Virus record (IMG/VR): IMGVR_UViG_3300013099_000008
Coordinates: 1 to 30,496 of that record
Direction: 5' to 3' (one strand)
From: a virus
Length of the DNA: 30,496 nucleotides
A model generated the notes under the pieces. That model made no database searches. It saw only the letters and a list, made by a program, of their open reading frames with translations, and was not told the origin of the DNA. Positions 1 to 23,124 of this stretch are shown in pieces; the stretch's first letter is position 1; each line of letters opens with the position of its first letter. A program made the translations under genes and the position numbers.

Positions 1-123
1 GTAACAATACCATATACAAGCGCATTACCAAATGCGCCAGATTATACAGAACCAAGTAAAGTTATTTATTGGACTACATCTCAGAACTGGGATATAGCAG
101 TAGAGGATTTTCAAGTTGAGCAA
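1..123. repeat. Left copy of 123-bp terminal direct repeat
   Basis: Bases 1-123 are identical to 30374-30496. The repeat lies inside the tail-fibre gene and keeps its reading frame when the ends are joined. This shows a circular or circularly permuted molecule with an assembly overlap, giving a unit genome of 30,373 bp. A genuine short terminal repeat is less likely because it would cut a gene. Confidence 0.95.
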
Positions 124-1347
124 AACCTAGTTATCGATGCTATGAATGCTGCAGGAATACAAATAGAAGCAGATGCTGATAGAGCTGAAGCAGGTTCAAA
201 CTATAAAGGAGTTTGGGATGCTGCATTCGATACTCCAAATGGTTATATGACTGGTGCTTCGGTATCTTATCCATTATCAACTTCTATAGGTTATTACTTA
301 TCACAATATGATAATAATACAACTGAACCAGTAGCAAGTACTTCAGATGCTAACTGGAAGTTCGCAGACCTAAGTGATAAAGTATCAAAAATAGATACCG
401 TAAATCAAACTATCGTTAGTAACTTAGATGCTCCGAGTTTATCTATAGGCGGTGTTGATGTTGCTACTACAATAACTGATATTATTAATGACGTATCAAA
501 AAATGGTGTTCCAGCAAGTAGAATGCTATTAGGTGATGTTAATCTTAATGTTAATACATTAGAAATCGATAATAGACAAATGATATTCAGTACAGGTTAT
601 ATTGATGGTCAAGCTATGAATGTAAGTGAAGTATCAACTTCTGTAGAAGCCCTAGCAATAACAGGATTAGTTGCATTATCAAATCTTTATGTATATAAAG
701 AATATGGTGGATTATGGTATGCTACAGTTGACAAACCTACTTTCGGAGCTAAATCAACAACTGGTGATTATTTCTTAGATGGTTTATGGTATGATAAAAC
801 AAATGCTCCATTACCGTATATAACATTTATTGATGGAACTGTAGAGACTGATGGTGCTGGAGATATTATTGCTTATACAGATTATTTTCAAGTTCCACTA
901 ATGCCAGAGAGTACATTGGTATTTCCAGCAGGTATTAGTATTGCTCATGCAGGTACAACTGCCCCAGATGGATTTATAATCAGAGATGGTTCTGAGTTAG
1001 ATAAGTTCGCATATGTAGATTTATATGCTGCTATCGGAGATACTTGGAACAATACAGGTGGAGCTGCTAATCCAGCTGCAGGTTTCTTTAGATTACCACC
1101 ACAAGATATAAGTGGTATTGGTCTTTATGATAGAGGTGTTGGTGCTGTTGCAGTAGGTGATTATCAAAGTGATGTTTTCAAATCACACGTTCACTCACAA
1201 ACAATACCAGCAAGTAAAACATCAGGTGCTTATGGTTCAGATTATACACCATATTACAACTCAGGTGGTGCTAGTACAGGTGCAACTGGTGATGTAGATG
1301 AAACAAGACCAAGATCAATCACAATGCTAATGTGTATAAAATACTAA
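1..1347 (+). CDS. Tail fibre protein with tail-collar domain (3' part; start at 30368 across the junction)
   Basis: Joined to 30368-30496 this gene encodes about 450 aa. The frame is open from base 1, so the ATG at 142 is internal. The C-terminal third looks like a phage tail-collar domain: a segment around window residues 310-330 (AGTTAPDGFIIRDGSELDKF) matches the usual APxGWxxxDG pattern. It is followed by a DLYAAIGDTW-like stretch and a FRLPPQD motif, and the protein ends ETRPRSITMLMCIKY, close to the ending of many T4-like and P2-like fibres. The N-terminus (starting MAVTIPYTSA) presumably attaches to the tail. It likely forms a trimeric receptor-binding fibre. The next gene follows after 9 nt and looks like its assembly factor. 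Confidence 0.85.
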   Translation, partial: VTIPYTSALPNAPDYTEPSKVIYWTTSQNWDIAVEDFQVEQNLVIDAMNAAGIQIEADADRAEAGSNYKGVWDAAFDTPNGYMTGASVSYPLSTSIGYYLSQYDNNTTEPVASTSDANWKFADLSDKVSKIDTVNQTIVSNLDAPSLSIGGVDVATTITDIINDVSKNGVPASRMLLGDVNLNVNTLEIDNRQMIFSTGYIDGQAMNVSEVSTSVEALAITGLVALSNLYVYKEYGGLWYATVDKPTFGAKSTTGDYFLDGLWYDKTNAPLPYITFIDGTVETDGAGDIIAYTDYFQVPLMPESTLVFPAGISIAHAGTTAPDGFIIRDGSELDKFAYVDLYAAIGDTWNNTGGAANPAAGFFRLPPQDISGIGLYDRGVGAVAVGDYQSDVFKSHVHSQTIPASKTSGAYGSDYTPYYNSGGASTGATGDVDETRPRSITMLMCIKY

Positions 1348-1356
1348 GGAGAATAA

Positions 1357-1950
1357 ATGTTCTACATATATACAAATGATACAAATGAGTATCTAAAAAC
1401 AACTGAGGGTCAAGTAGATCCTAAGAATCCAGGTAGTCATCTGACTCCTGCATTTTCAACTACATTACCACCATTAGCCCCAGTTCCTAATAAGGTAGCT
1501 ATTTTCAATGGAGTAATATGGGTTTATGGAGATGACTACAGAAATGAGCTAATATATAATGAGACTACAAGAGAAGAGAAAACTCAAGAAACATTAGGTG
1601 ATTTAGAAGTAGGTTACAAACTGAAAAGTCACTATCAACTTGATTCTTGGGGTCGTTATTGGTATTTCTACAATCCAGATGGATCACCAGATCATGCCGC
1701 TATTGATGCTCATGATGCAACTCTAGAGTTAGCTGAAAAGAAAAGACAAGCTATTACAAATATCAAAGACACCAATATGTGTATGATCGATACATTCATC
1801 ACATTGATGAGTAACCCTCAAGAATCAGCAATGAGAACTTATAGAGAAGAAAGTCTTGCTATATTACAAGATACCTCTACAACATTACCAGTTGTTCAAG
1901 GTAATACTAAGCTTATGGAAGCATTTGATATATTTGGCTTAGAATACTAA
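1357..1950 (+). CDS. Putative tail fibre assembly protein
   Basis: This 197-aa protein starts 9 nt after the tail fibre stop behind a good AAGGAG site. The N-terminal half has a proline-rich PPLAPVPNKVAIFNG segment followed by VIWVYGDDYRNELIY. That resembles the W-x-V-x-D-x-R-G-x-x-x-Y signature of Tfa-type fibre-assembly chaperones. A second aromatic segment (SWGRYWYFYNPDG) lies near residue 105. The C-terminal part is helical and charged. Position directly downstream of a collar-domain fibre supports a chaperone or fibre-tip role. The family match is by motif only, and a structural fibre-tip protein is the alternative. Confidence 0.55.
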   Translation: MFYIYTNDTNEYLKTTEGQVDPKNPGSHLTPAFSTTLPPLAPVPNKVAIFNGVIWVYGDDYRNELIYNETTREEKTQETLGDLEVGYKLKSHYQLDSWGRYWYFYNPDGSPDHAAIDAHDATLELAEKKRQAITNIKDTNMCMIDTFITLMSNPQESAMRTYREESLAILQDTSTTLPVVQGNTKLMEAFDIFGLEY

Positions 1951-1951
1951 A

Positions 1952-1959
1952 TATAAATA
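1952..1959 (+). promoter_or_regulatory. TATAAATA late-promoter-like motif
   Basis: Exact TATAAATA directly after the stop at 1950, upstream of the small gene and methyltransferase half. It is one of ten such motifs in the genome, almost all at gene boundaries. The sequence equals the T4 late promoter core; recognition by such a sigma factor is inference. Confidence 0.5.
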
Positions 1960-1964
1960 ATATA

Positions 1965-2044
1965 CATCACGGTTCATTTTTTGACATTTGACATTTATTT
2001 CCTATCGTGATGAATGTCCTGGTTTACATGCCATTTTCCAGGAC
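1965..2044 (+). other. Two tandem hairpins in leader of small gene
   Basis: The first stem pairs 1965-1971 (CATCACG) with 2006-2012 (CGTGATG), extendable inward by a G-U and a T-A pair. The second pairs GTCCTGG (2016-2022) with CCAGGAC (2038-2044) perfectly. The first loop contains TTGACA twice, at 1981-1986 and 1988-1993. The pair lies between the TATAAATA motif at 1952 and the ATG at 2063, so it would be transcribed as a structured 5' leader. No T-tract follows, so it is not a typical terminator. Confidence 0.5.
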
Positions 2045-2062
2045 ACTTATGAGGATCATAAC

Positions 2063-2200
2063 ATGACACGAGACATCCCCTACAGAATAAAACAATCAGA
2101 ACTCTTCAATTACCCAATAAAACTCAAATACAGAACAGTATATATAAAAGATACAGATAAACTCCACTATCTTTATAGAAAAAACCTACACAATCTATAA
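2063..2200 (+). CDS. Small hypothetical protein (45 aa)
   Basis: The start at 2063 is chosen because GAGG lies about 8 nt upstream and the ATG follows the leader hairpins. An in-frame TTG at 1988 would give 70 aa, but its coding sequence would run through the second hairpin and it has no obvious ribosome binding site. The 45-aa product is basic and rich in tyrosine and lysine, with no membrane segment. It ends 2 nt before the downstream methyltransferase half, so the two may be translationally coupled. I do not recognise the family. Confidence 0.45.
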   Translation: MTRDIPYRIKQSELFNYPIKLKYRTVYIKDTDKLHYLYRKNLHNL

Positions 2201-2202
2201 CC

Positions 2203-3084
2203 ATGAAATTTGATTATATAATAGGCAATCCGCCATATCAATACCCAAAGGGTGTTAGTACTAATAAGAAATTGTATATTGATGTTACTAAAAGATGTAT
2301 CCCGTTACTTAAAGATGATGGAGAGTTGATATTTATTACACCAGAAGCCATTCTAGATGATGGACAACAAAATACCGTCTATAAAATGATTAAGGATAGA
2401 ATAAAGGTAGTAAATTATGATACTAATGATGATTTTGATATTGGCCAATCTGTTGTTTATTGGTCAATAAACTCGAATAAACGAGAATCTATAGAAATTA
2501 TCGAAAATGGAGAGTCTAGATTTGTCAAGAATATTTCTCTGGTTAGTAGAAAAGATATGATAAATGTCAATTCTATTTTGAACAAAGTATCGTTTAAAAC
2601 TAATGGTAAAAAGAAGATGCAGATGTTTAACACCGATAAAAAACATGGCGTAGAAAATAAGAAACTTACTTTAGAGAAAGTTAACGACGATGATATTGAA
2701 GTATATTGTAACACAAAAAGACAAAGAGTAAAATATTCTTCAATAGAGAACAAACCAACTATAGAGCTTCAATTGATTGTACCATATGTTGGAGGTTGGG
2801 ATGAAGGTTGTCAAATAACCAACAGAATTACCAATAAATTCTTCTACGTTAATAAAACAGAGCAATCCAGAGAAACTTTGGAAAATATGAAAACATATAT
2901 AGAGAGTAAGTTATTAACTTACTCTGTTTTGAATTATCAAAAAATAAAATGTTCTAGTGCTTACAATTTTTTATCTAGATTAACAGAAATCGACTTTAAT
3001 CGTCATTGGGCAGATGAAGAGTTATATGTTGAGTTTGGACTTACAGAAGAAGAGATTAAAGAGATAGAAATATTCTCTCGTTAA
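2203..3084 (+). CDS. Adenine DNA methyltransferase, NPPY catalytic half only
   Basis: This 293-aa protein begins MKFDYIIGNPPYQ, so motif IV of gamma-type N6-adenine methyltransferases sits at residues 8-12. The SAM-binding motif I that normally precedes it is missing. A strand-helix segment with GELIFITPEAIL follows near residues 40-52. The C-terminus DEELYVEFGLTEEEIKEIE is typical of phage Eco57I-type methyltransferases, so the catalytic and target-recognition part looks complete. No upstream frame supplies motif I. It may be a degenerate orphan, or may pair in trans with the motif-I protein at 5765. Start is ATG 2 nt after the previous stop with no clear ribosome binding site, which suggests translational coupling. 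Confidence 0.75.
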   Translation: MKFDYIIGNPPYQYPKGVSTNKKLYIDVTKRCIPLLKDDGELIFITPEAILDDGQQNTVYKMIKDRIKVVNYDTNDDFDIGQSVVYWSINSNKRESIEIIENGESRFVKNISLVSRKDMINVNSILNKVSFKTNGKKKMQMFNTDKKHGVENKKLTLEKVNDDDIEVYCNTKRQRVKYSSIENKPTIELQLIVPYVGGWDEGCQITNRITNKFFYVNKTEQSRETLENMKTYIESKLLTYSVLNYQKIKCSSAYNFLSRLTEIDFNRHWADEELYVEFGLTEEEIKEIEIFSR

Positions 3085-5310: not shown

Positions 5311-5760
5311 ATGGTAAACACAAACCCAAACGGTCAAGACCGTTCTCTAACACGCTTCAAAGTTTATGCCTTAATACCCAAAGACTCCAAAGACTCCAAA
5401 ATCTACATTGGTAGAACTACACTTACTTTAGAACGTAGACTATCCGATCATAAACGTCAATTCAAGGTTAACGGTTTCCATAAAGCTCATGATAATATAA
5501 AAGCAGATGGACTAACTATTGATGACTTCAATATTCACCTTATAGGTGCTTATAAATCGAAGTCTAAGATGCTCGAAATGGAAAAGCACTTCATAAAACA
5601 ACAGTCTAATCTATATAACTTTAGAGACGGAACTATATGGATAACCGAAGAATCCAAAGATAAAATGCGTAAATCTAAACTTGGTAAATTAAGAGGTCCT
5701 TATAAAGGTAACGCTGAATATTGTGAACAGACTATCAAGTTACATGAACAGAAGGACTAA
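5311..5760 (+). CDS. GIY-YIG homing endonuclease
   Basis: This 149-aa protein has the GIY-YIG core as VYALI (residues 18-22) and YIGRT (32-36). A catalytic-type arginine follows in LERRL, and a glutamate lies in EMEKHFI near residue 90. The C-terminal segment ESKDKMRKSKLGK is a NUMOD3-like DNA-binding motif, usual in freestanding phage homing endonucleases. It sits between the candidate origin and the split methyltransferase, 4 nt before the motif-I half. Such genes move between phages by cutting homologous sites, and their insertion can split neighbouring genes. The ribosome binding site AAAGGAAAC is good, but the promoter is unclear. Confidence 0.85.
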   Translation: MVNTNPNGQDRSLTRFKVYALIPKDSKDSKIYIGRTTLTLERRLSDHKRQFKVNGFHKAHDNIKADGLTIDDFNIHLIGAYKSKSKMLEMEKHFIKQQSNLYNFRDGTIWITEESKDKMRKSKLGKLRGPYKGNAEYCEQTIKLHEQKD

Positions 5761-5764
5761 CATT

Positions 5765-6079
5765 ATGAAGTCAAAGCAAAGAATAAAAGAAACTGGAGAG
5801 GTTTTTACACCTCCTGAACTTGTGCAGAAGATGTTAGACAATTTAGATATTGACTGGAGCAATCCACCTCAAAATAAGACATTCTTAGACCCAACTTGTG
5901 GTGATGGTAACTTCTTAGTTGAACTATATAATAGAGGAATACCTCCAGAGAACATTTACGGTGTTGACTTGATGTTTGATAATATTGAACAATGTAAATA
6001 TAGAATGCCTCTAGTTCCAGAAAAGAACTTAGTACAAGCCAACGCTCTTAATTTTGATTATGGGAGTTTACTTGTTTGA
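5765..6079 (+). CDS. Adenine DNA methyltransferase, SAM-binding half
   Basis: This 104-aa protein contains ETGEVFTPPELV (residues 9-20), the usual N-terminal motif X region, and SAM-binding motif I as LDPTCGDGNF (41-50). The acidic motif II region follows as YGVDLMFD near residue 70. It stops just where motif IV (NPPY) would follow, and NPPY begins in the +1 frame. The two could be a deliberately split enzyme, a programmed +1 shift at GTT-TGA, or a simple frameshift mutation. The ATG at 5765 is chosen because an upstream in-frame start (5723) would overlap the GIY-YIG gene. Confidence 0.75.
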   Translation: MKSKQRIKETGEVFTPPELVQKMLDNLDIDWSNPPQNKTFLDPTCGDGNFLVELYNRGIPPENIYGVDLMFDNIEQCKYRMPLVPEKNLVQANALNFDYGSLLV

Positions 6080-6887
6080 TTATATTGTAGCCAATCCTCC
6101 TTATCAAGGCCTTCTTAATTCGTCACCTATATGGCAAAAAATAACCTTAAAAATGTTTGATTTACTTACAGATGGTCAAATGACTATTGTGCATCCAGGT
6201 AACTGGAAATTAGCCTCAAAAGAATTGAATACTAGAAAAGAATCAATACGGATGAAAGAATTATTATGTACGTACAATGTGACATCATTACAATCTCACT
6301 CTTCAAAAGAAGGTAGTGAAGTATTCGGAGCTACAACAACATTCGATCATTATGTGATTGATAAAACTTTATCAAAAACTCCTGGTTATTTAGAAATTCA
6401 AACTAAAACTGATGGTGTAACTTTAGTAGATCTAAACAAAGTAAAACATATACCATGTGATAGAATAGAAGATTATATGAAGTTAATCAAAAACCCTATT
6501 AAGCTTGATTGTAGATTTAAACCAACAGCTTCAAATACTCCTGGTGAATATAAAATGTTAAAGAAATTAATATTAGATTGGGATAAAAATGTAGGCTATA
6601 CAAATAAACAATCAGAACTTGGTAAAACTCCAAAACTTGTTATAGGTAGAGGTGCGACTTATACTTTCCTAGATGAATTCGGAGAATGGGAAATAAACTT
6701 AGATGGTTTTTATATATTAGGTGATGTTGAACATCTTAAAAAAGTTCAAGAAGCTTTTAAAAACGATTATTTCAAAACTCTTATGAGCGAAGTTACCGGT
6801 TCAACGGATAAAAGAACGATGGACCCTAATAGATTATCACGAAATTACATAACTGAATTATCAGTAGATTTTTATGATGAGCTTTGA
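6060..6887 (+). CDS. Adenine DNA methyltransferase, NPPY catalytic half
   Basis: This frame carries FDYIVANPPYQ at its very start, followed by a catalytic-domain segment with DGQMTIVHPGNWKLA and a target-recognition-like C-terminus. The start is uncertain: ATG at 6060 lacks a ribosome binding site, while TTG at 6072 lies 5 nt after GGGAG and would give MFDYIVANPPY. The gene overlaps the stop of the SAM-binding half, which would favour coupled translation. Together the two halves make a full gamma-type N6-adenine methyltransferase. Its probable role is to protect phage DNA from host restriction. A one-base frameshift of an originally single gene cannot be excluded. Confidence 0.75.
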   Translation: MGVYLFDYIVANPPYQGLLNSSPIWQKITLKMFDLLTDGQMTIVHPGNWKLASKELNTRKESIRMKELLCTYNVTSLQSHSSKEGSEVFGATTTFDHYVIDKTLSKTPGYLEIQTKTDGVTLVDLNKVKHIPCDRIEDYMKLIKNPIKLDCRFKPTASNTPGEYKMLKKLILDWDKNVGYTNKQSELGKTPKLVIGRGATYTFLDEFGEWEINLDGFYILGDVEHLKKVQEAFKNDYFKTLMSEVTGSTDKRTMDPNRLSRNYITELSVDFYDEL

Positions 6888-6987
6888 TTACATAATTGGT
6901 AATCCTCCTTATCAAGACTCAAAAGCTTTAGGATCCAATAAAAACTCATTAAAACACACAAAAACTGTGTATATCTATGTTATTTAG
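6877..6987 (+). pseudogene. Methyltransferase remnant starting at NPPY motif (36 aa)
   Basis: An ATG overlapping the end of the previous gene opens MSFDYIIGNPPYQDSKALGS and the frame stops at TAG 6985 after 36 codons. The first 13 residues closely match the start of the NPPY halves at 2203 and 6060. No coding continuation is visible downstream, so this looks like the truncated start of a third NPPY gene. A functional mini-protein is unlikely but not excluded. Confidence 0.65.
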
Positions 6988-7492: not shown

Positions 7493-7539
7493 AAATAACA
7501 AATTATAACAAAAAATAATGGAAATAAGGAAACTCAAAC

Positions 7540-8829
7540 TTGGATATAACATTTGACAGACAAAAACTACTAAGACCACCACAAATAGAGATATTTGATT
7601 CTAAAGCAAGATTCAGAGTGATTGCCGCAGGGGTTTAGAGGTCTTTGAATAAACTCTTAGACCTCTAAACCTCTAACATTTGACGCAGATTTGGGAAGTC
7701 AGTCTTAGGCTGTTACATCCTCATCACTAAAGCTCTCCAAAAACCAAATCAAATATTATTCTTTGCCGCACCAACTGCTTCTCAAGCTAGGATGATTCTT
7801 TGGTCTATCTTATTAGAGAAGACTCACAATATTGCAAAGAAAGTAAATCAAAGTAATCTATCAGTAGAACTCATGAATGGTTCCGTGATTTATCTAAAAT
7901 CATTAGATTCACCTGAACGACTTCGTGGGGTTTCACTTGATGCTATTGTAATAGACGAGTGCGGGAGTGTTAGAAATTTAGAAGAGATATTTGTAAAGAT
8001 TATCAGACCCAGTTTAGCGGATAAGCTCGGTACTGCTGATTTTATTTCAAGCCCTTCCGGTCGTAACTATTTTTTCAAATTATGGAGTAATGGTAAAAAT
8101 AAAGCTGATTGGGAATCATTTCAATATACAACTATCCAGGGAATGAATGTTACTGAAGAAGAGATAGAAGCAGCAAGAGAAGATATGGATGATAAATCTT
8201 TCAATCAAGAGTTCAATGGAGAATTCATAAGTTTTGACGGATTAGTAGTTCCCGATTTCTGTCAAATCAAAAACAATAGTAATGAGACCGTACAAGATGA
8301 TGATACTCTTCTAATAGGTGTTGACTTCAACATAAATAAAAATCCTGCATCAGTTTGGGTACTAAGAAATGGATTATTACATATGGTGGACGCATTCTAC
8401 GGAAGTTTTGATACTGAACAGATGATGCTAGCTATTCAAAATAGATATCCAAAACATAAAATCATATTCACTACAGATGCTTCAGGATCGGCTAGAAAGA
8501 CTTCTGCTGGAGGTAAAACGGATGTTAGCATCATTGAAAGTTTTGGATATACGGTAAAGAATCTAAGTAAGAATCCCGGAATTATTGATAGAGTAAATTC
8601 CTTCAATAGTATGATATGTAATAGTAAAGGTGAAAGAAAACTATTCTTTGTTCAAAATAAAAGAACTGAAAAGTTTATTGAAGCTTTATTAGAACATTAT
8701 TTTGATGATAACGGAATGCCTAATAAGAAACACTTATATCACGATGATTGTGTAGATTCCATGCAGTATTTAGTATGGAGATTCAGTTCATTTGGAAGAG
8801 TAAAACCTACAAGGACAGGGAGAAGATGA
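7540..8829 (+). CDS. terL: Terminase large subunit, interrupted in Walker A by 51 nt
   Basis: The start is TTG at 7540 behind AAGGA. Residues 1-31 end in RVIAAG at 7632; then 51 nt (7633-7683) with three in-frame stops intervene; coding resumes in the same frame at 7684 with RRFGKSVLG. Removing the 51 nt gives a 412-aa protein with an ordinary terminase Walker A (AGRRFGKS), Walker B (AIVIDECG), and RNase-H-like nuclease motifs GVDFN, TTDASG and HDDCVDSM. There is no start codon or ribosome binding site near 7684; the first ATG is at 7792, well inside the ATPase. All conserved motifs after the gap are intact, which argues for a functional gene read by translational bypass, by removal of the RNA segment, or by an unusual DNA event. 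Recent inactivation is the dull alternative. Confidence 0.85.
7633..7683 (+). other. 51-nt stop-containing hairpin insert in terminase Walker A (bypass-like)
   Basis: The insert begins directly after the glycine codon GGG (7630-7632). GTTTAGAGGTCT (7633-7644) pairs perfectly with AGACCTCTAAAC (7659-7670), a 12-bp stem with a 14-nt loop. In frame it reads TAG at 7636, TAA at 7666 and TGA at 7681. CCTCTAA occurs twice (7662-7668, 7670-7676), so the 5' arm has an alternative partner. Its length is a multiple of three. T4 gene 60 has a 50-nt untranslated gap with a stop and hairpin right after the take-off glycine codon, so the likeness is close. A matching glycine landing codon is not seen. Confidence 0.85.
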
Positions 8830-13187: not shown

Positions 13188-13841
13188 ATGTCAACAAAAT
13201 ATATAAAAGCTTATTTCAATATTTGTAATAATGCTAGAAAAGATAATAGAAGTAAAAAAGATGGTATATATTATGAAAATCATCACATAAAACCAACATC
13301 TCTTGGTGGATTAGATATCAATACAAATAAGGTATTGCTTACAGGAAGAGAACATTATATAGTTCATTTCTTATTATATAAGCATTATAAAAGTATTAAC
13401 AAACAACCGGGATTAGCTAAAATGGCTAAGGCTTTTAATATGATGACTTTGACACAAGTTAGAAAAGAGAGATATACATCTAAGACGTTTGAGATAGCAA
13501 GGATTGCAAGTGCTGAAGCTCAATCATATTTTATGAAGGGAAAACCTTCTTGGAATACAGGCTTAGATATGAAAAGTTTAGGATATGTAAGTGCTAATTT
13601 AAATATTCCTATTCCTCAAGAAGTAAAAGACAAAATCTCAAATACTTTAATGGGTAATACTCCTTGGAATAAAGATAGAACAGATTTACCTTCTCACAGT
13701 AGTGAAAGCAATCTACAAAGATCTAAAACTATGAAGGGACAGAATACAGGTAATCAAAAGATTATAACTTGTCCTCATTGTAATAAGTCTGGCGGTAATA
13801 CAATGAAGCGATGGCACTTCGATCACTGTAAATATAAATAA
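13188..13841 (+). CDS. HNH homing endonuclease
   Basis: This 217-aa protein contains the HNH core as ENHHIKPTSLGG (residues 30-41), then an asparagine in INTNKVLLT and REHYIVH (54-60) supplying the final histidines. This is the pattern of phage HNH enzymes. NUMOD3-like segments occur around KPSWNTG and in the C-terminal third (SESNLQRSKTMKG). The C-terminus has a zinc-finger-like C-P-H-C plus H-x-x-H-F-D-H-C. It is freestanding between the major capsid gene and a small structural gene, with its own promoter and leader hairpin, so it can be expressed independently of the head operon. Confidence 0.85.
   Translation: MSTKYIKAYFNICNNARKDNRSKKDGIYYENHHIKPTSLGGLDINTNKVLLTGREHYIVHFLLYKHYKSINKQPGLAKMAKAFNMMTLTQVRKERYTSKTFEIARIASAEAQSYFMKGKPSWNTGLDMKSLGYVSANLNIPIPQEVKDKISNTLMGNTPWNKDRTDLPSHSSESNLQRSKTMKGQNTGNQKIITCPHCNKSGGNTMKRWHFDHCKYK
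13833..13840 (+). promoter_or_regulatory. TATAAATA late-promoter-like motif
   Basis: Exact TATAAATA overlapping the HNH stop codon, 22 nt before the next gene. It would restart structural-gene transcription after the endonuclease insertion. Confidence 0.5.
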
Positions 13842-13862: not shown

Positions 13863-14096
13863 ATGTCATTCTTCAACAACAAACATTTCAATAGCAGTTT
13901 TTATGATAGCAAATTCTATGATAACGACTTTTTCAAAAACGATTTCTTCAAAAGTGATACTGTTCCATCAGTACAGATAGACTTAGAAGGTATGTCAGCA
14001 AAAGAACTCAAGGTATATATTGAGCAACTTGGTGGTTCACCAGTAGGTATCAAAGGTAAAGAGAATCTTATAAAAGAAATAGGGAGATTAGTATAA
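13863..14096 (+). CDS. Small putative head-associated protein (77 aa)
   Basis: The N-terminal 30 residues are a phenylalanine/tyrosine-rich repeat (FYDSKFYDNDFFKNDFFKS) in which aromatic residues recur every 3-5 positions. The C-terminal half (MSAKELKVYIEQLGGSPVGI) resembles a short helix-extended-helix domain of the SAP/LEM type. Its stop overlaps the start of the next gene (TAATG). It sits between the capsid gene and the Ig-like surface proteins, suggesting a capsid-attached or anchoring protein. The 353-aa protein at 22063 also begins with short aromatic FNG repeats. Confidence 0.5.
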   Translation: MSFFNNKHFNSSFYDSKFYDNDFFKNDFFKSDTVPSVQIDLEGMSAKELKVYIEQLGGSPVGIKGKENLIKEIGRLV

Positions 14097-15625
14097 TGTA
14101 TGTAGTAAGTCCTAGCCCAGTGGCTAATAGTAATAGTGGAGATGCTGGTAGTTATGTATCTGCAACTAGTATAAGAATCGAACCAGATGATGGAACTTAT
14201 GTGATTGGTGTTACAGGTCAGTATAAAGCTTTCAATCAAGCTAATCAAGATATTACTAGTATAGTAGATTGGTATTCTGATGATGCTGGTATTGTAAATC
14301 TAAATGCTACTGGTTTCGCAACAGCAGTAGGAGCAGGTACATGTAAAATATCAGCTACTCTCAAAACAGATCCATCTATCAACTCATCTACAGATCCAGT
14401 AGTAGTAGTTACAAGTAAAGAGTTTCATGTTCAGATGACGGCTAGTATAACAGGTAAAACTAATATAAAACTTATCACTACTGGTAGTATGGATTTCACA
14501 TATAATCTTGGTGATGGTAGTGGGTGGAAAGACTATCTTGGTTATGTAACAAATACACTTATTGCTGCAGATGTAGTAGCTGGTAATGTTTTCGAAATAA
14601 GAGCATTAGATCAACTGAATAGTGTTATACAACCTCGATTCTCCTCAGGTGGTGCTAGTGGTGGAGATATCTTTTCAGCCATAGATATTATAAAGAGTTC
14701 TAGTATTACAAGCGCTTATGAACTATGTACAACAATGACAGGGATGACTTCTTTCAATATGAGTGATGCTTCTAATATCACTGATTTTCAACATGCTTGG
14801 AATGGATGTTCAGGTCTCACATCGTTCCCTATAATAGATACTTCTAATGCACTAATATTACATAATGCTTGGAATGGATGTTCAGGTCTCACATCGTTCC
14901 CTATATTAGATTATTCTGTTACTACTGGAATTGGTGGTACCTGGAAAAACTGTTCAAGTCTCACATCGTTCCCTGACTTCAATGTCCCAAACGTACTAAC
15001 CCTACCAGAAACTTGGAATGGATGTACAAATATTACCACATTTGGGGATATAATAGTACCTAAATGTACAGATTATTCATCTACTTGGAAAAATTGTACA
15101 AAAATAGACCTATTATTATCTAACACTTACGATTTTGGGGTTCCTACAAACCTGAATAATACTTGGTATGGATGTAATCAGCTAACATCTTTTCCAATGA
15201 TTGATACAGCCTTAGTAACTGATTTCGGGTATACTTGGGGTGGTTGTTCTGGTCTCACAAGCTTCCCATTGATAGATACAAGTTCAGGAACTGATTTCTC
15301 TAGTACTTGGCAAAGTTGTTCAAGTCTCACAAGCTTCCCAAGCATAGATACTAGTTCAGGTACTGGGTTCTTCAGTACTTGGAGTGGTTGTTCAAGTCTC
15401 ACAAGTTTCCCAAGCATAGATACAAGTTCAGGAACTGGGTTCAGTTCACCATTCTCAAATTGTACAAGTCTAGTATGTATTGGGGCCATAGATACTACCA
15501 ATAGTACATGGACTCAATACATATTCTTCGGCTGTACAAGTCTTGTAGCACCTAACAGCACAGAAATAACTCAAATAGAAGCAATACCCGGTATCGAATG
15601 GACTAACCTAAATCCTTGTCCGTAA
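14096..15625 (+). CDS. Ig-like / DUF285-repeat surface protein (509 aa)
   Basis: Residues ~18-110 form a Big_2-type Ig-like domain (IRIEPDDGTYVIG at the start, CKISATL in the core). A beta-rich domain beginning FHVQMTASITGKTNIKL follows. From about residue 200 there are tandem ~24-residue repeats of the DUF285/BspA type, built on W-x-x-C-S-S/G-L-T-S-F-P-x-x-D-T-S. Two repeats share an identical 41-nt stretch (14793-14833, 14865-14905). The C-terminus ends IPGIEWTNLNPCP, a module shared with the two paralogues at 15651 and 22063. Likely a capsid decoration or adhesion fibre that binds host surface or glycans. Confidence 0.7.
   Translation: MYVVSPSPVANSNSGDAGSYVSATSIRIEPDDGTYVIGVTGQYKAFNQANQDITSIVDWYSDDAGIVNLNATGFATAVGAGTCKISATLKTDPSINSSTDPVVVVTSKEFHVQMTASITGKTNIKLITTGSMDFTYNLGDGSGWKDYLGYVTNTLIAADVVAGNVFEIRALDQLNSVIQPRFSSGGASGGDIFSAIDIIKSSSITSAYELCTTMTGMTSFNMSDASNITDFQHAWNGCSGLTSFPIIDTSNALILHNAWNGCSGLTSFPILDYSVTTGIGGTWKNCSSLTSFPDFNVPNVLTLPETWNGCTNITTFGDIIVPKCTDYSSTWKNCTKIDLLLSNTYDFGVPTNLNNTWYGCNQLTSFPMIDTALVTDFGYTWGGCSGLTSFPLIDTSSGTDFSSTWQSCSSLTSFPSIDTSSGTGFFSTWSGCSSLTSFPSIDTSSGTGFSSPFSNCTSLVCIGAIDTTNSTWTQYIFFGCTSLVAPNSTEITQIEAIPGIEWTNLNPCP
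14793..14905 (+). repeat. Exact 41-nt direct repeats within DUF285 array
   Basis: 14793-14833 and 14865-14905 are identical, 72 nt (24 codons) apart. This is one repeat period and indicates recent duplication or gene conversion. Confidence 0.9.
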
Positions 15626-15650: not shown

Positions 15651-18600
15651 ATGTTCATAGTAAATCAACAAACAGAATCCTCAAGTGCCTCTTCAGGTGC
15701 TGGTGATACTCCCCTCTCAATAACCTCAATACATATATTACCAGATAATGAAGTTTTCAATCTTGGCATCAATGGCAAGTATACTGCTCTCAATCAATAT
15801 AATGTAATGATCAACAAATACGTTTATTGGACTTCAAGTGATCCTACAATAGTAGAAGTAAATGCTATTACAGGTGAAGCAACTTCTAAAGCATTAGGTA
15901 CAGTTACAATAACAGCTACTCTTATAACAGATGGTAGCATTGTTGGAACAACAACTACAGAAATAGTACCAGTAGCTATTATAAATGGTTTTCATGCAGA
16001 GTTATTATGTTCAGTAACTGGTGATACAAATATCAAACTATTTTCTAATGGACCATTAGATATGACTATTGATTTTGGTTCAGGACCAGTTACTTACACA
16101 GGTTATGTTTCAGGTTCTCCAATCACAGCAAATGTAACAGCGGGTGAAACAGTGATTATAGATGTTCCTGATAACTTCAACTATGTTATGAATCCCCAGT
16201 TCACTGGTGGTTCTCAACTAATAGGAGATATATTCAGTGAGGTAGATATTACTAAGAGTTCAAGCGTTACAGATATGAATATGGTATGTTACTATATGAC
16301 AAATCTTACTGCTTTTGCAGTAGATGATAATGCAGGTGTTACTAATATGAAGATGGCTTTTGAAAACTGTTCATCACTTACTGTAATACCAGGTTTCGAT
16401 GTATTGACAGTTACTGATAGTACCTCAATGTTTTCAGGATGTTCAGTATTAGATAATATTCCAACATTCACATTTTCAGCATTACTAACAGCTAAAGAGA
16501 TGTTCAAAGGTTGTGCTAATCTGAAGCAATTCAATGCTCCATCACTAGCAACACTTACAGTAACTAATATGTATGGAACATTTCAAGATTGTAGCTCACT
16601 TGTTACAATACCAACATTTGAAACAAGTTCAGTTACAAATATGGATTATACATTTTCAGGTTGTTCAAGCCTAACAGATATACCATTATTGTCTACTCAA
16701 GAAGCTACTACAATGAATTATACGTTTCAAGGATGTACAAACTTAGCAACATTAGCAACATTGGATACAGGTAAAGTTATTTCTATGACTAATACTTTTC
16801 AAGATTGTAGTTCGTTAGTTGTAATGCCATTACTGAATACAATAAATGTTACTACACTTGCAGATGCTTGGTCAGGTTGTAACACATTGGAATATTTCCC
16901 AGCTATTGATACTTCTAAGGTAACTGATTTCAGTTATGCTTGGAACTTATGTGATAAACTATTGGAGTTTCCAGCATTAGATTTCACTAATGGATTAGAT
17001 TTCACAAGAACATTCAATGAGTGTCTGTTGTTACAAGCAATGCCATTACTTGATACTGTAAAAGGTAATGTTTTCGATTCTATGTTTATGAACTGTGAAG
17101 AACTTGTATGTCTTACAGAACTTGATACAAGAGTAGATACATCAACAGCTGATTTATTCACTAATACTCCGTTACTAACTAGTCCTGATCTTACAGAACA
17201 ACAATTACTAACAGTAGTTCCTGGAGTAAAATATGTGAATCCATCTCCTTGTACAGTTGCTATTACTTCAATAACTATTACTCCAGATGATGGTTCTTTC
17301 ATCGTTGGTGTAGTAGGTGATTACAAGGCTTATTCACAAAGTGGTGTTGACATTACAGATAAAGTTACTTGGTCTTCAGGTAATGTAGCTATTGTTACCA
17401 TAGATAGTGTTACTGGAGAAGCAACAGCAGTATTAGATGGTACTACAACCATAGATTGTTTTCTTATTGCTGACCCATTGATTACTGCTACTACAGATGT
17501 TACCATAACATTGACTAGTATGGCATTTCACGCAGAACTACTAGTTTCTGTTAGTTCTAATACAAACTTCAGACTTTATACAACTGGTAATATTGATTTC
17601 ACTGTTGATTATGGTGATGGAGTAGGACCAGTTGATTACTTAGATTATATTTCAGGTACTATTATTTCTGAACCTATGATTGCTGGTAATACTATGATTA
17701 TTGATGTATTGGATCAGACTTACAGTGTTAGTAATCCTCAGTTCACTGCTTCTTCAAATACAATCGGTTATCATTTCACTACTGTAGATATTACTAAAAG
17801 TAGTTCTGTTACAGATGCTTCTAATATGTGTTATTACTTAGATAAACTAACCTCATTCACAATAGATGATGCTAGTAATATTACTAACTTCACGAACATG
17901 TTCAGCTACTGTTATGATCTAACAACTATACCATTATTCGATACATCTAGTGGTGTTGATTTCATTTATATGTTCGGCTACTGTACAGCACTAACAACTA
18001 TACCATTATTCGATACTTCAAGTGGTACTGATTTCACTCATATGTTTATAGGTTGTAACTTATTAGATAATATTCCAACATTAGATACTTCAAGTGGTAC
18101 TGATTTCGTTGGTATGTTCAGTGATTGTACAAGCTTAGTAGTAACACCTACATTAGATGTTTCAAATGGAACTAGTTTCTATAGGATGTATAATGGTTGT
18201 ACTTCACTAGTAACCGTTGCTGATATGAATACAAGTATTGGTACTACCTTCTATGAGATGTTCCAAGATTGTAGCTCACTAGTATGTCTAACAACATTAG
18301 ATACAAGTTTATCAACTGTTTCAACTGATTTATTCGATGGTTGTATATTACTTACAAGTCCAGATGCTACTGAGCAAATAGACTTAGCAGCTATACCAGG
18401 AACTAACTATATCAATCCAACACCTTGTACAACTACAACTACAAGTATGACAATCAAGCCAGATGATGGTAAATATAATGTAGGAACAACTGGAGATTAT
18501 AAAGCATATAACCAATCTGGAGTAGATATTACTTCTCTTGTTACATGGTCTACAGATGATGCATTGACAGTTGAGATAGATACAGTAACAGGTGCAGCTG

Positions 18601-20216
18601 AAGGTATGAAGGTAGGAACAACTGTTATTAGATGTGAACTTATTTCTGATCCATTGATTATTGCAAATACAGATGTTGAGATTACGATTACAACTATGGC
18701 ATTTCATGCAGAGTTACTATGTAACACAAGTGGTAATACTAACTTTCATCTTGTTACTACTGGAACATTAGATATGACAGTAGATTTTGGATCAGGACCA
18801 GTTGCTTATAATTCTTATAGTAGTTATTCTGTTATATCAGAACCTATTTCAGCTGGTAAGACATTGATTATTGATGTACCAGAACAAATCAACAATGTAG
18901 CTCAAGTAAGATTCACTGCAGCTACAACATCAGGAGATTTATTTAGCTCAGTTGATATTACTAAATCTAGTTCGTTGACATCTGCGTTCGTAATGTGTAG
19001 TGAAATGAGTAAGTTGACATCGTTTAGCATTGCTGATTCTACTAATATTACTAACTTTCAAAATATGTTTGCTAACTGTAACTTATTACCTGCTGTAACA
19101 AATATAGATACAGCTAATGGAACTATTTTCAATAGTATGTTCAAAGGTTGTTCAAGTCTAGAATCAATAGATGCTATTGTTACAAGTACCGGTTCTAACT
19201 TCGATAGTATGTTAGAAGGTTGTAGTTCACTTGTATGTTTATCTTCTATTGATACTACAAATGCTACTACTTCAACAGATATGTTCACTGGATGTACAAG
19301 CCTTGTAGCACCTGATAGTGCAGAACAAACACAAATAACTAATATTCCAGGTATTGATTGGGTAAATGTAAATCCTTGTCCTACTGCTACAACCGCATTT
19401 CATGCTGAGTTATTGTGTTCAGTGAGTGGTAATACTATAGGTATAACATTATATACTACAGGAACAATGGATATAACAATAGATGAAGGTGCTGGTTCAG
19501 GACCTATACCATATACAATAAACAGTGGTAATAATAAATTTATTGATATTATAATTGGTAATACAATAATCATAGATGCACCTGTTCAAACACATCGTGT
19601 TACACATATGAAAAAACTGGATAATAAATATAGTGAAGTAAATATTACTAAAAGTTCAAGTCTTACAAGTTTAGGTAATCTCTGCGAGAATATGACTGAG
19701 CTTACCACTTTCAATATGAATGATAGTTCTAATGTTACTGATTTCAATAGTGCTTGGAAGGATTGTAGTTCACTTACAAGCTTCCCAAGTATAGATACAA
19801 GTTCAGGAACTAATTTCAGAAATACTTGGTTTGCATGTTCAAGTCTCACAAGTTTCCCAAGTATAGATACAAGTTCAGGTACTACTTTTCAAAGTGCTTG
19901 GGCTGGATGTTCAGCCCTCGCAAGTTTCCCATTATTAGATACTAGTTCAGTTACTAGTTTCCACCAGGCTTGGTCTAATTGTTATAGTCTCACAAGTTTC
20001 CCAAGTATAGATACAAGTTCAGGTACTAATTTCGGTAGTACTTGGAGTAATTGTTCAAACTTAGCATGTCTCACAAATGTAGATACAAGACTAAGTATAG
20101 ACTCAGATTATATGTTCGACTACTGTCCAAGTCTCATAGCACCTAACAGCACAGAACAAACTCAAATAGAAGCAATACCAGGTATCAACTGGGTAAATCC
20201 AAATCCATGTCCATAA
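15651..20216 (+). CDS. Giant Ig-like / DUF285-repeat surface protein (1521 aa)
   Basis: This is the largest gene, about 15% of the genome. It contains four related modules beginning near residues 20, 535, 930 and 1248. The first three each have a Big_2 Ig-like domain, then a FHAELL...-type beta domain, then DUF285/BspA repeats (F-x-x-C-S-S-L-x-x-I-P-x-x-D-T-S), then a cap ending in IPG-x-x-W/Y-V/I-N-P-x-PC. The last module lacks the Ig-like domain. Repeats in module 4 nearly match those of the neighbouring 509-aa gene at DNA level. No signal peptide is present, as expected for a virion protein. Its position between capsid and connector genes suggests a head-bound fibre rather than a tail fibre. 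Confidence 0.7.
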   Translation: MFIVNQQTESSSASSGAGDTPLSITSIHILPDNEVFNLGINGKYTALNQYNVMINKYVYWTSSDPTIVEVNAITGEATSKALGTVTITATLITDGSIVGTTTTEIVPVAIINGFHAELLCSVTGDTNIKLFSNGPLDMTIDFGSGPVTYTGYVSGSPITANVTAGETVIIDVPDNFNYVMNPQFTGGSQLIGDIFSEVDITKSSSVTDMNMVCYYMTNLTAFAVDDNAGVTNMKMAFENCSSLTVIPGFDVLTVTDSTSMFSGCSVLDNIPTFTFSALLTAKEMFKGCANLKQFNAPSLATLTVTNMYGTFQDCSSLVTIPTFETSSVTNMDYTFSGCSSLTDIPLLSTQEATTMNYTFQGCTNLATLATLDTGKVISMTNTFQDCSSLVVMPLLNTINVTTLADAWSGCNTLEYFPAIDTSKVTDFSYAWNLCDKLLEFPALDFTNGLDFTRTFNECLLLQAMPLLDTVKGNVFDSMFMNCEELVCLTELDTRVDTSTADLFTNTPLLTSPDLTEQQLLTVVPGVKYVNPSPCTVAITSITITPDDGSFIVGVVGDYKAYSQSGVDITDKVTWSSGNVAIVTIDSVTGEATAVLDGTTTIDCFLIADPLITATTDVTITLTSMAFHAELLVSVSSNTNFRLYTTGNIDFTVDYGDGVGPVDYLDYISGTIISEPMIAGNTMIIDVLDQTYSVSNPQFTASSNTIGYHFTTVDITKSSSVTDASNMCYYLDKLTSFTIDDASNITNFTNMFSYCYDLTTIPLFDTSSGVDFIYMFGYCTALTTIPLFDTSSGTDFTHMFIGCNLLDNIPTLDTSSGTDFVGMFSDCTSLVVTPTLDVSNGTSFYRMYNGCTSLVTVADMNTSIGTTFYEMFQDCSSLVCLTTLDTSLSTVSTDLFDGCILLTSPDATEQIDLAAIPGTNYINPTPCTTTTTSMTIKPDDGKYNVGTTGDYKAYNQSGVDITSLVTWSTDDALTVEIDTVTGAAEGMKVGTTVIRCELISDPLIIANTDVEITITTMAFHAELLCNTSGNTNFHLVTTGTLDMTVDFGSGPVAYNSYSSYSVISEPISAGKTLIIDVPEQINNVAQVRFTAATTSGDLFSSVDITKSSSLTSAFVMCSEMSKLTSFSIADSTNITNFQNMFANCNLLPAVTNIDTANGTIFNSMFKGCSSLESIDAIVTSTGSNFDSMLEGCSSLVCLSSIDTTNATTSTDMFTGCTSLVAPDSAEQTQITNIPGIDWVNVNPCPTATTAFHAELLCSVSGNTIGITLYTTGTMDITIDEGAGSGPIPYTINSGNNKFIDIIIGNTIIIDAPVQTHRVTHMKKLDNKYSEVNITKSSSLTSLGNLCENMTELTTFNMNDSSNVTDFNSAWKDCSSLTSFPSIDTSSGTNFRNTWFACSSLTSFPSIDTSSGTTFQSAWAGCSALASFPLLDTSSVTSFHQAWSNCYSLTSFPSIDTSSGTNFGSTWSNCSNLACLTNVDTRLSIDSDYMFDYCPSLIAPNSTEQTQIEAIPGINWVNPNPCP

Positions 20217-20695: not shown

Positions 20696-21373
20696 ATGAA
20701 AGAATATACAATATATCACATACCAGGAATTAAAGTTGGTTGTACTGCTGACTTTAAGACAAGATGCAATTCTAATAAAAGAAGATATGGTCAAGCCATA
20801 GAAATAGAGATATTAGAGCGATTCCCTGAAGGCATATTAACATTAACGGAAATCTCCGATTTAGAATGGGCTCATGCCGCTAATTATGGATATGCCTTAG
20901 GTCAGAGATATGAAAATAGCATAAAAGCAAGTGAGTCAAGATTAGGAACAAATCATACCGAGGATACAAAAGAAAAGATGAAGATCTCTGCAACAGGTAG
21001 AACTATGAGTGATACTGCTAAAATAAATATGAGTAAAGCATTCACTGGTAGAATAGAAAGCAAAGAGACAAGAGAAAAGTTATCAAAAAGTAATAATGGC
21101 TCAAAACGAACAGATGAACAAAAGAAACATTTCAGCGAAGTACAAAAAGCATTGAATAAGACTCTTTCTCAAGAGACTAAAGATAAAATACGAGATAAAT
21201 TGATTGGTACTACCCTAAGTAACGAGACAAAAATAAAAATAGGTCTTCAAAGTAAAGGAAATGTAAATTGTAGGGATCTTAGAACTGGTGATAAATACCG
21301 GGTATCCAAAGAAGAATTCGATAAACATGATTATCTTGTAGGAACATCATCTAAGAAGGAGAATTACAAATGA
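20696..21373 (+). CDS. GIY-YIG-like homing endonuclease with NUMOD3 repeats
   Basis: The N-terminus YTIYHIPGIKVGCT (residues 4-17) is a compact GIY-YIG core with KVGCT in place of YIG. It is followed by an arginine (KTRC) and an acidic LEWAHA near residue 62. The C-terminal half consists of at least four NUMOD3-like DNA-binding repeats (for example TEDTKEKMKISATG, ESKETREKLSKSNNG, SQETKDKIRDKLIG). It has its own promoter, and its end overlaps the next connector gene by 4 nt (ATGA). It splits the head-tail connector cluster, consistent with a mobile insertion. Its divergent active site may be less active. Confidence 0.75.
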   Translation: MKEYTIYHIPGIKVGCTADFKTRCNSNKRRYGQAIEIEILERFPEGILTLTEISDLEWAHAANYGYALGQRYENSIKASESRLGTNHTEDTKEKMKISATGRTMSDTAKINMSKAFTGRIESKETREKLSKSNNGSKRTDEQKKHFSEVQKALNKTLSQETKDKIRDKLIGTTLSNETKIKIGLQSKGNVNCRDLRTGDKYRVSKEEFDKHDYLVGTSSKKENYK

Positions 21374-22062: not shown

Positions 22063-23124
22063 ATGTCTTTTTTATTCAATAGTACTAATCTTACAGGGAT
22101 GTATTTCAATGGTACTGAACTAACTAATATGTTTTTCAACGGAGTCGAGATGGCTTCTAGTACAACTACATCTGTAACTGTATATCCTAAAAATATAACA
22201 TTCGGTAATACACTGAGTGGTTATTATAAAGCATTAGATCAATTCGATAGTGATATCACAGCTTTATGTACTTGGGAATCTGCTGATCCTGCAATAGTAA
22301 GTATAGATAGTACAGCTCTTGCTACTGCGTTATCAACAGGTACAACTCAAATAACAGCATTACTAACTTCTAATCCTGCTATAAAGAATACCACTAACGT
22401 TACGATTGATAACAGTAGTTCAAATAATGCTTTCGAAGCTACACTAACAGTGTCTAAAGCAGGTACAAGTAATATAAGAATACTAACTAATGGAAATGTC
22501 GACTTATCAATAAATTGGGGAGCTGGTCCTATACTATACAATAATGTTACTTCCGGTACAAAGTTCAATGAGGTATTAGCACCTGGTGCTACTGTTCAAA
22601 TAACTTGTCCAAATGCTGTAAATTATATTACAAGTATTGACTTTCAGGGTTCTGTTTATGATTATAGTACAGACTTATATGATACAATAGCAATAACTAA
22701 GAGTTCTGGTCTAACAAGTATGAATGGTATTACAGGTTATAGCAATCAACTAACCTCATTCACAATAGCAGATACTAGCAATGTAACAAGTACTTTATAT
22801 GCTTTCAAAAACTGTTATGAACTTATAACACTTAGCTCAATGGATCTTAGCAGTGTAACCAACTTCACTCAGATGTTCTTTGGAGCTTCTAAAATAAGAC
22901 ATATCAATATGATTACCTCAGATGTTGGTATAAAATATGAGAGACTATTCACAAGTTGTGTAGCATTAGAATGTGTAGGTGGAAACCTAGATACTACTAA
23001 TAACACAAGTTCAGTTGATATGTTTGGTAACACGCCAGCACTTACAACACCAGATAGTGTTGATAGATTAGCAATAACTACAATACCAGGTATCAATTGG
23101 GTAAATCCAGGAAGTTGTCCATGA
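22063..23124 (+). CDS. Ig-like / DUF285-type surface protein (353 aa)
   Basis: The N-terminal 30 residues carry short aromatic repeats (GMYFNGTELTNMFFNGVEM). A Big_2 Ig-like domain follows (residues ~35-120), then the same beta domain found in the two larger paralogues (FEATLTVSKAGTSNIRI). A few degenerate DUF285 repeats follow, and the shared C-terminal cap ends IPGINWVNPGSCP. It is a single-module version of the repeating unit of the 1521-aa protein and so shows what one module looks like. Its stop overlaps the next gene (ATGA). Confidence 0.65.
   Translation: MSFLFNSTNLTGMYFNGTELTNMFFNGVEMASSTTTSVTVYPKNITFGNTLSGYYKALDQFDSDITALCTWESADPAIVSIDSTALATALSTGTTQITALLTSNPAIKNTTNVTIDNSSSNNAFEATLTVSKAGTSNIRILTNGNVDLSINWGAGPILYNNVTSGTKFNEVLAPGATVQITCPNAVNYITSIDFQGSVYDYSTDLYDTIAITKSSGLTSMNGITGYSNQLTSFTIADTSNVTSTLYAFKNCYELITLSSMDLSSVTNFTQMFFGASKIRHINMITSDVGIKYERLFTSCVALECVGGNLDTTNNTSSVDMFGNTPALTTPDSVDRLAITTIPGINWVNPGSCP

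Follow-up and report, generated by a model that had tools for sequence, protein, structure and literature searches.

A stop-filled 51-nt hairpin insert in the Walker A motif of a phage terminase gene, a candidate for translational bypassing

Results

The terminase gene and its interruption

The window, by which we mean the whole stretch of viral DNA that was analysed (30,496 bases, a single record from IMG/VR), contains a terminase gene (terL) followed by genes for a portal-like DUF4055 protein, a Mu F-like protein, a Gp13-like major capsid protein, connectors, tape measure and tail fibre. The TerL frame opens at a TTG with a good ribosome-binding site (Table 1) and, read from the sequence, gives LDITFDRQKLLRPPQIEIFDSKARFRVIAAG-V-stop. 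The same frame is found again from CGC 7684, where it reads RRFGKSVLG... through to the stop at 8829. Between the two parts lie 51 nt that split the Walker A motif between glycine and arginine (…RVIAAG^RRFGKS…) and contain the in-frame stops TAG 7636, TAA 7666 and TGA 7681. The remaining two frames of the insert are also closed, so that all three are blocked.

The first-pass annotation had placed the residues AAG, at 7632, and RRFGKS, at 7684, in one frame on either side of this stop-containing gap, with an intact terminase after it and no usable start before 7792. On re-reading, all of this holds. The RRFGKS frame is open to its end and lacks ATG, GTG and TTG until 7792, while a profile built from other TerLs aligns without a break from 7576 to 8775 (E = 1.3e-103), the only stops within the match being the three of the insert. 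No second TerL was found in the record with this type of profile. In an alignment with six TerLs the gap falls exactly inside Walker A (G^RRFGK) with zero residues lost or gained, and apart from the insert the gene shows no further damage against its homologues. The stop-filled insert is confirmed as a real feature of the sequence, and both coding parts are intact. Two ways of translating through it were rejected: all three stop codons are in frame, so that reassignment of one codon would be insufficient, and every alternative frame is closed.

Table 1. Positions of features in and near the interrupted terL gene
Feature	Position	Strand	Basis or remark
Free-standing homing-endonuclease-like gene, GIY-YIG	5311-5760		
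Shine-Dalgarno-like AAGGA, 9 nt before TTG 7540	7526-7530	+	Read directly from the sequence
First part of the TerL coding sequence, from TTG: 31 residues as far as the Walker A glycine, followed by Val and TAG 7636-7638	7540-7638	+	Aligns with homologue N-termini; profile match from 7576
Glycine codon GGG, putative take-off codon	7630-7632	+	
Non-coding insert of 51 nt, in-frame TAG/TAA/TGA	7633-7683	+	Absent from 162 related TerL loci
5' arm of perfect 13-bp stem	7632-7644	+	
Loop, 14 nt	7645-7658	+	
3' arm of perfect 13-bp stem	7659-7671	+	
Insert tail downstream of the stem; its last triplet, UGA, adjoins the resume codon and is the putative, imperfect landing triplet	7675-7683	+	
TerL second coding part: RRFGKS..., remainder of P-loop, Walker B VIDE, nuclease motifs, stop	7684-8829	+	

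The boundary of the insert is ambiguous by two bases, with the protein unchanged in all three versions. Omitting 7633-7683 leaves the glycine codon as GGG, while omitting 7632-7682 or 7631-7681 leaves GGA. Among the glycine codons counted in the phage there are 142 GGA and 20 GGG, the latter making up 4.5%. Given this sevenfold excess, GGA is the more likely codon of the uninterrupted gene, and one or two of its bases may survive in the UGA that now precedes CGC. Codons around the junction are atypical and could mark a recombined tract; we give this no weight because codons are atypical at other conserved TerL motifs too.

The hairpin

The insert is largely occupied by a hairpin whose stem, given as 12 bp in the first-pass annotation, is indeed perfect but has 13 bp. 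In the folded RNA it grows to 16 bp with one G-U pair and starts at A7629, which places the glycine codon GGG within the stem. Folding of a 131-nt segment gave a z of -3.4. In the 30.5-kb window, which has 33% GC, this is the sole perfect stem of at least 11 bp with a loop of up to 30 nt, and a 13-bp stem was reached in none of 60 simulated windows and in none of 20,000 simulated 52-nt stretches. A terminator was rejected, as the stem is not followed by a T-run and is not among the terminator-like sites, and so was a fold-back artefact of local sequence, as the arms occur nowhere else in the contig. An 11-nt repeat (TAACATTTGAC, at 7547 and 7674) was also set aside, short matches of similar size being common in this AT-rich window.

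Relatives and possible origin of the insert

A search of related terL genes for hairpin inserts, as the first-pass annotation had proposed, covered scans of viral contigs and records of the phage collection. All 162 other loci where the site was readable (143 distinct sequences) are uninterrupted. The closest of these relatives, at about 40% identity, are too distant to date the insert. Searches by terL, by capsid, by long DNA and by an exact terL stretch found no close relatives, and the adjoining sequence was not found in another contig, although near-identical records may lie outside the material searched. The case for a function of the interrupted gene draws on a single contig from a virus collection and has no comparative support. 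One further contig (L016, the same as L135) has an intein-like end (...IPTHN^SYLSMSQ) at its TerL Walker A motif, within 1-3000.

Searches of viral contigs, phages and plasmids turned up no copy of the hairpin. Three genome contigs (L088-L090) carry the same arms with different loops; they were rejected as copies, their number being near that expected by chance (a hand estimate) and no intact gene running across the hairpin. If the CGCAG repeat around the insert (7626-7630 and 7684-7688) were a target duplication, the inserted unit would be 58 nt long and would not keep the frame of terL. A MITE or transposon with target duplication was rejected on this misfit and on the lack of copies elsewhere. 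The earlier suggestion of a mobile element aimed at conserved sites has indirect support, in that there is no target duplication fitting the frame, the motif is one that attracts inteins and the contig has three homing endonuclease genes, but a second copy was not found. Because three homing endonuclease-like genes lie in the contig and TerL P-loops attract inteins, spread of the insert by a homing-like process is conceivable. In interrupting a conserved motif the insert resembles the inteins (such as that at Walker A of L016/L135) and group I introns known from TerL; unlike them, with their hundreds of bases of coding or catalytic sequence, 51 nt can be neither.

Besides the GIY-YIG gene of Table 1, free-standing homing-endonuclease-like genes lie at 13188-13841 (phrog_655 homing endonuclease) and 20696-21373 (NUMOD3). 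Amid the head and connector genes sit three proteins with Big_2 Ig-like domains and long repeats, at 14096-15625 (509 aa), 15651-20216 (1521 aa) and 22063-23124 (353 aa). The 1521- and 353-aa proteins also match DUF285, a Mycoplasma-type repeat, in Pfam, and all three are possibly large virion surface or adhesion proteins. Upstream of terL, an adenine methylase is made up of a SAM-binding ORF (5765-6079) and an overlapping NPPY ORF (6060-6887). An apparent methyltransferase frameshift at 6054-6079 is in fact this overlap of two ORFs. A truncated repeat of the NPPY start is seen at about 6880 (6875-6960) and a further NPPY ORF, with an Eco57I match, at 2203-3084, which suggests modular or duplicated parts.

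Interrupted terminases of Streptomyces phages

A likely case of bypassing has been described in the terminase of the Streptomyces phage phiHau3 (PMC5009743). Reading the gene, we found the codons for KGWG, then TTACTCCGGT, then AAG GAC CCC (KDPLLA). GreenWeasel TerL has the phiHau3 insert with one substitution, TTACCCCGGT, while in the relatives Alsaber and phiScoe10 KGWGKDPLLA is uninterrupted. The 10-nt insert lies at about 540-605 of the GreenWeasel record (L172) and about 2600-2625 of that of phiHau3 (L091); the GreenWeasel terminase region is annotated as three separate ORFs.

In both systems a small non-coding insert sits in TerL Walker A right after a glycine codon (PMC5009743). The phage precedent for bypassing is stronger than the first-pass annotation knew, the phiHau3 terminase being interrupted at nearly the same place. 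The likeness has limits: the phiHau3/GreenWeasel insert is 10 nt long, has no large hairpin, involves a UUA codon and lies in a different TerL family, and in phiHau3 it ends in the synonymous glycine codon GGT, whereas the present insert offers no glycine to land on. phiHau3 and GreenWeasel are isolates that grow. That phages with an interrupted Walker A motif grow raises the chance that the present terL is functional.

Comparison with known bypassing elements

To our knowledge, efficient long bypassing in bacteria and phages has been firmly shown only for gene 60 of T4. There the take-off codon, GGA, lies in a stem and precedes a 50-nt gap whose first codon is UAG and whose last is a matching GGA. 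Bypassing of gene 60 relies on a KKYK nascent peptide, a 5' stem-loop and an A-site stem-loop (PMC11194080; PMC5009743). The resemblance of the terL insert is in its overall anatomy: a non-coding gap of similar size (51 vs 50 nt) lies between two parts of one protein, the take-off codon would be a glycine codon, here GGG, this codon lies inside a strong stem-loop (PMC11194080), here the 16-bp stem, and a stop comes early in the gap. The differences are in the detail. Gene 60 has its stop directly after the take-off codon, whereas terL reads GGG GTT TAG; gene 60 lands on a matching GGA, whereas terL pairs GGG with TGA; and neither the KKYK nascent peptide nor the 5' stem-loop was found in terL, where the 31 residues before the gap hold no KKYK-type peptide and the upstream RNA shows only weak structure. 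The gap of gene 60 also shifts the frame, which that of terL does not, and the terL stem is longer (16 vs about 10 bp) with a larger loop. Because the immediate stop, the matching landing codon, the nascent peptide and the 5' stem-loop are absent, the terL insert falls outside the T4 type by the rules of gene 60, though it may work in a similar way.

Several mitochondrial cases of bypassing have take-off and landing codons that are not perfectly matched, and may use two-of-three pairing (PMC5009743), which is what a move from GGG to UGA in terL would need. The mitochondrial byp elements of Magnusiomyces capitatus are likewise short blocks inserted into essential genes for which a full match of take-off and landing codons is unneeded (PMC5009743). 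They occupy 81 sites in one mitochondrial genome, however, whereas the terL insert is a single copy in a bacterial phage.

Discussion

We consider it possible, with a probability of roughly 0.4, that ribosomes bypass the 51-nt insert and that normal TerL is made, both the hop and the product being inferred from the sequence. In this reading a small hairpin element would have entered terL at its Walker A codons. Ribosomes at GGG 7630 would detach ahead of the nearby stop and move across the 51 nt, a slide that the strong hairpin would help to begin or to steer. The final triplet, UGA, would be the landing site, where tRNA-Gly would re-pair imperfectly, by two of three pairs, and translation would resume at CGC 7684 to give normal TerL. 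Consistent with this, joining the two coding parts neither drops nor adds a residue relative to homologues, the first part keeps its start and ribosome-binding site, the surrounding head and tail genes look intact in a record with no second TerL, and the size and layout are close to those of T4 gene 60.

Other features speak against bypassing. The weak point already named in the first-pass annotation, the lack of a glycine landing codon, does exist: UGA stands just before the resume codon, which limits re-pairing to two of three bases. The sense codon GUU sits between GGG and the stop, and no second genome has the insert to support it by conservation. A Shine-Dalgarno-like sequence before the landing point at 7684 was not found. 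The next in-frame GGG is at 7693, and landing there would drop RRFG from the P-loop. The idea of ribosome hopping is thus partly supported, by a T4-like anatomy but not by a matching landing codon, an immediate stop, a KKYK peptide or a landing aid. Bypassing of this insert is a possible but unproven new variant of the process. The fuller account, in which a mobile hairpin colonised Walker A of terL and was silenced by hopping with an imperfect landing triplet, under rules looser than those of gene 60, is somewhat less likely.

Nearly as likely as bypassing is that the hairpin element simply inactivated the gene, the phage being defective or a decaying prophage and making no working TerL. Three stops in an essential motif are most simply read in this way, which also agrees with the incomplete T4-type recoding signal and with the lack of any relative that keeps the insert. 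Against this, the 30.5 kb show no other clear gene damage, nor was an integrase recognised among the ORFs scanned, which were part of all ORFs. The insertion is a clean one, lacking any target duplication that would fit the frame, and a contig assembled from a population would suggest a genome that replicates.

It seems unlikely that the insert is an assembly artefact or a minority variant, most phage genomes of the sample lacking the 51 nt. There is one record only, and the adjoining sequence recurs in no other contig searched, but the arms are not found elsewhere in the contig as a local fold-back would have them, and both junctions are exact to the codon.

Removal of the segment from the RNA by some unknown small splicing or processing reaction, the other proposal of the first-pass annotation, gained no positive support and is very improbable. 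Two of the three possible boundaries would restore the common glycine codon GGA. Against this, the window gave no Rfam match up to E = 1, so no conserved core of a group I or II ribozyme, and an intron was rejected on this ground. We know of no self-splicing RNA of 51 nt, the insert being far too short for any known self-splicing intron, and splicing machinery is not expected in a bacterial host. Phage group I introns span 173 to 3279 bases in one survey (PMC11878797). Equally hard to credit is a TerL that assembles from two pieces, or whose downstream part uses a non-standard start codon: the upstream ORF retains its start and ribosome-binding site and the downstream frame is open from 7684, but the split falls inside the P-loop, no Shine-Dalgarno-like sequence precedes 7684, and a start at 7792, the first ATG, GTG or TTG, would lose Walker A.

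Either ribosomes jump the hairpin in terL or this phage cannot package its DNA. If bypassing does occur, phages would have two natural bypasses of about 50 nt, this one in an essential motor protein. Since the gene is unrelated to gene 60, the hairpin differs and the landing codon is unmatched, such a case would reveal which features bypassing truly requires. Taken with phiHau3, it would make the terminase P-loop a recurring site of small inserts tolerated by recoding, and it would serve as a warning that genes interrupted in this way get annotated as broken.
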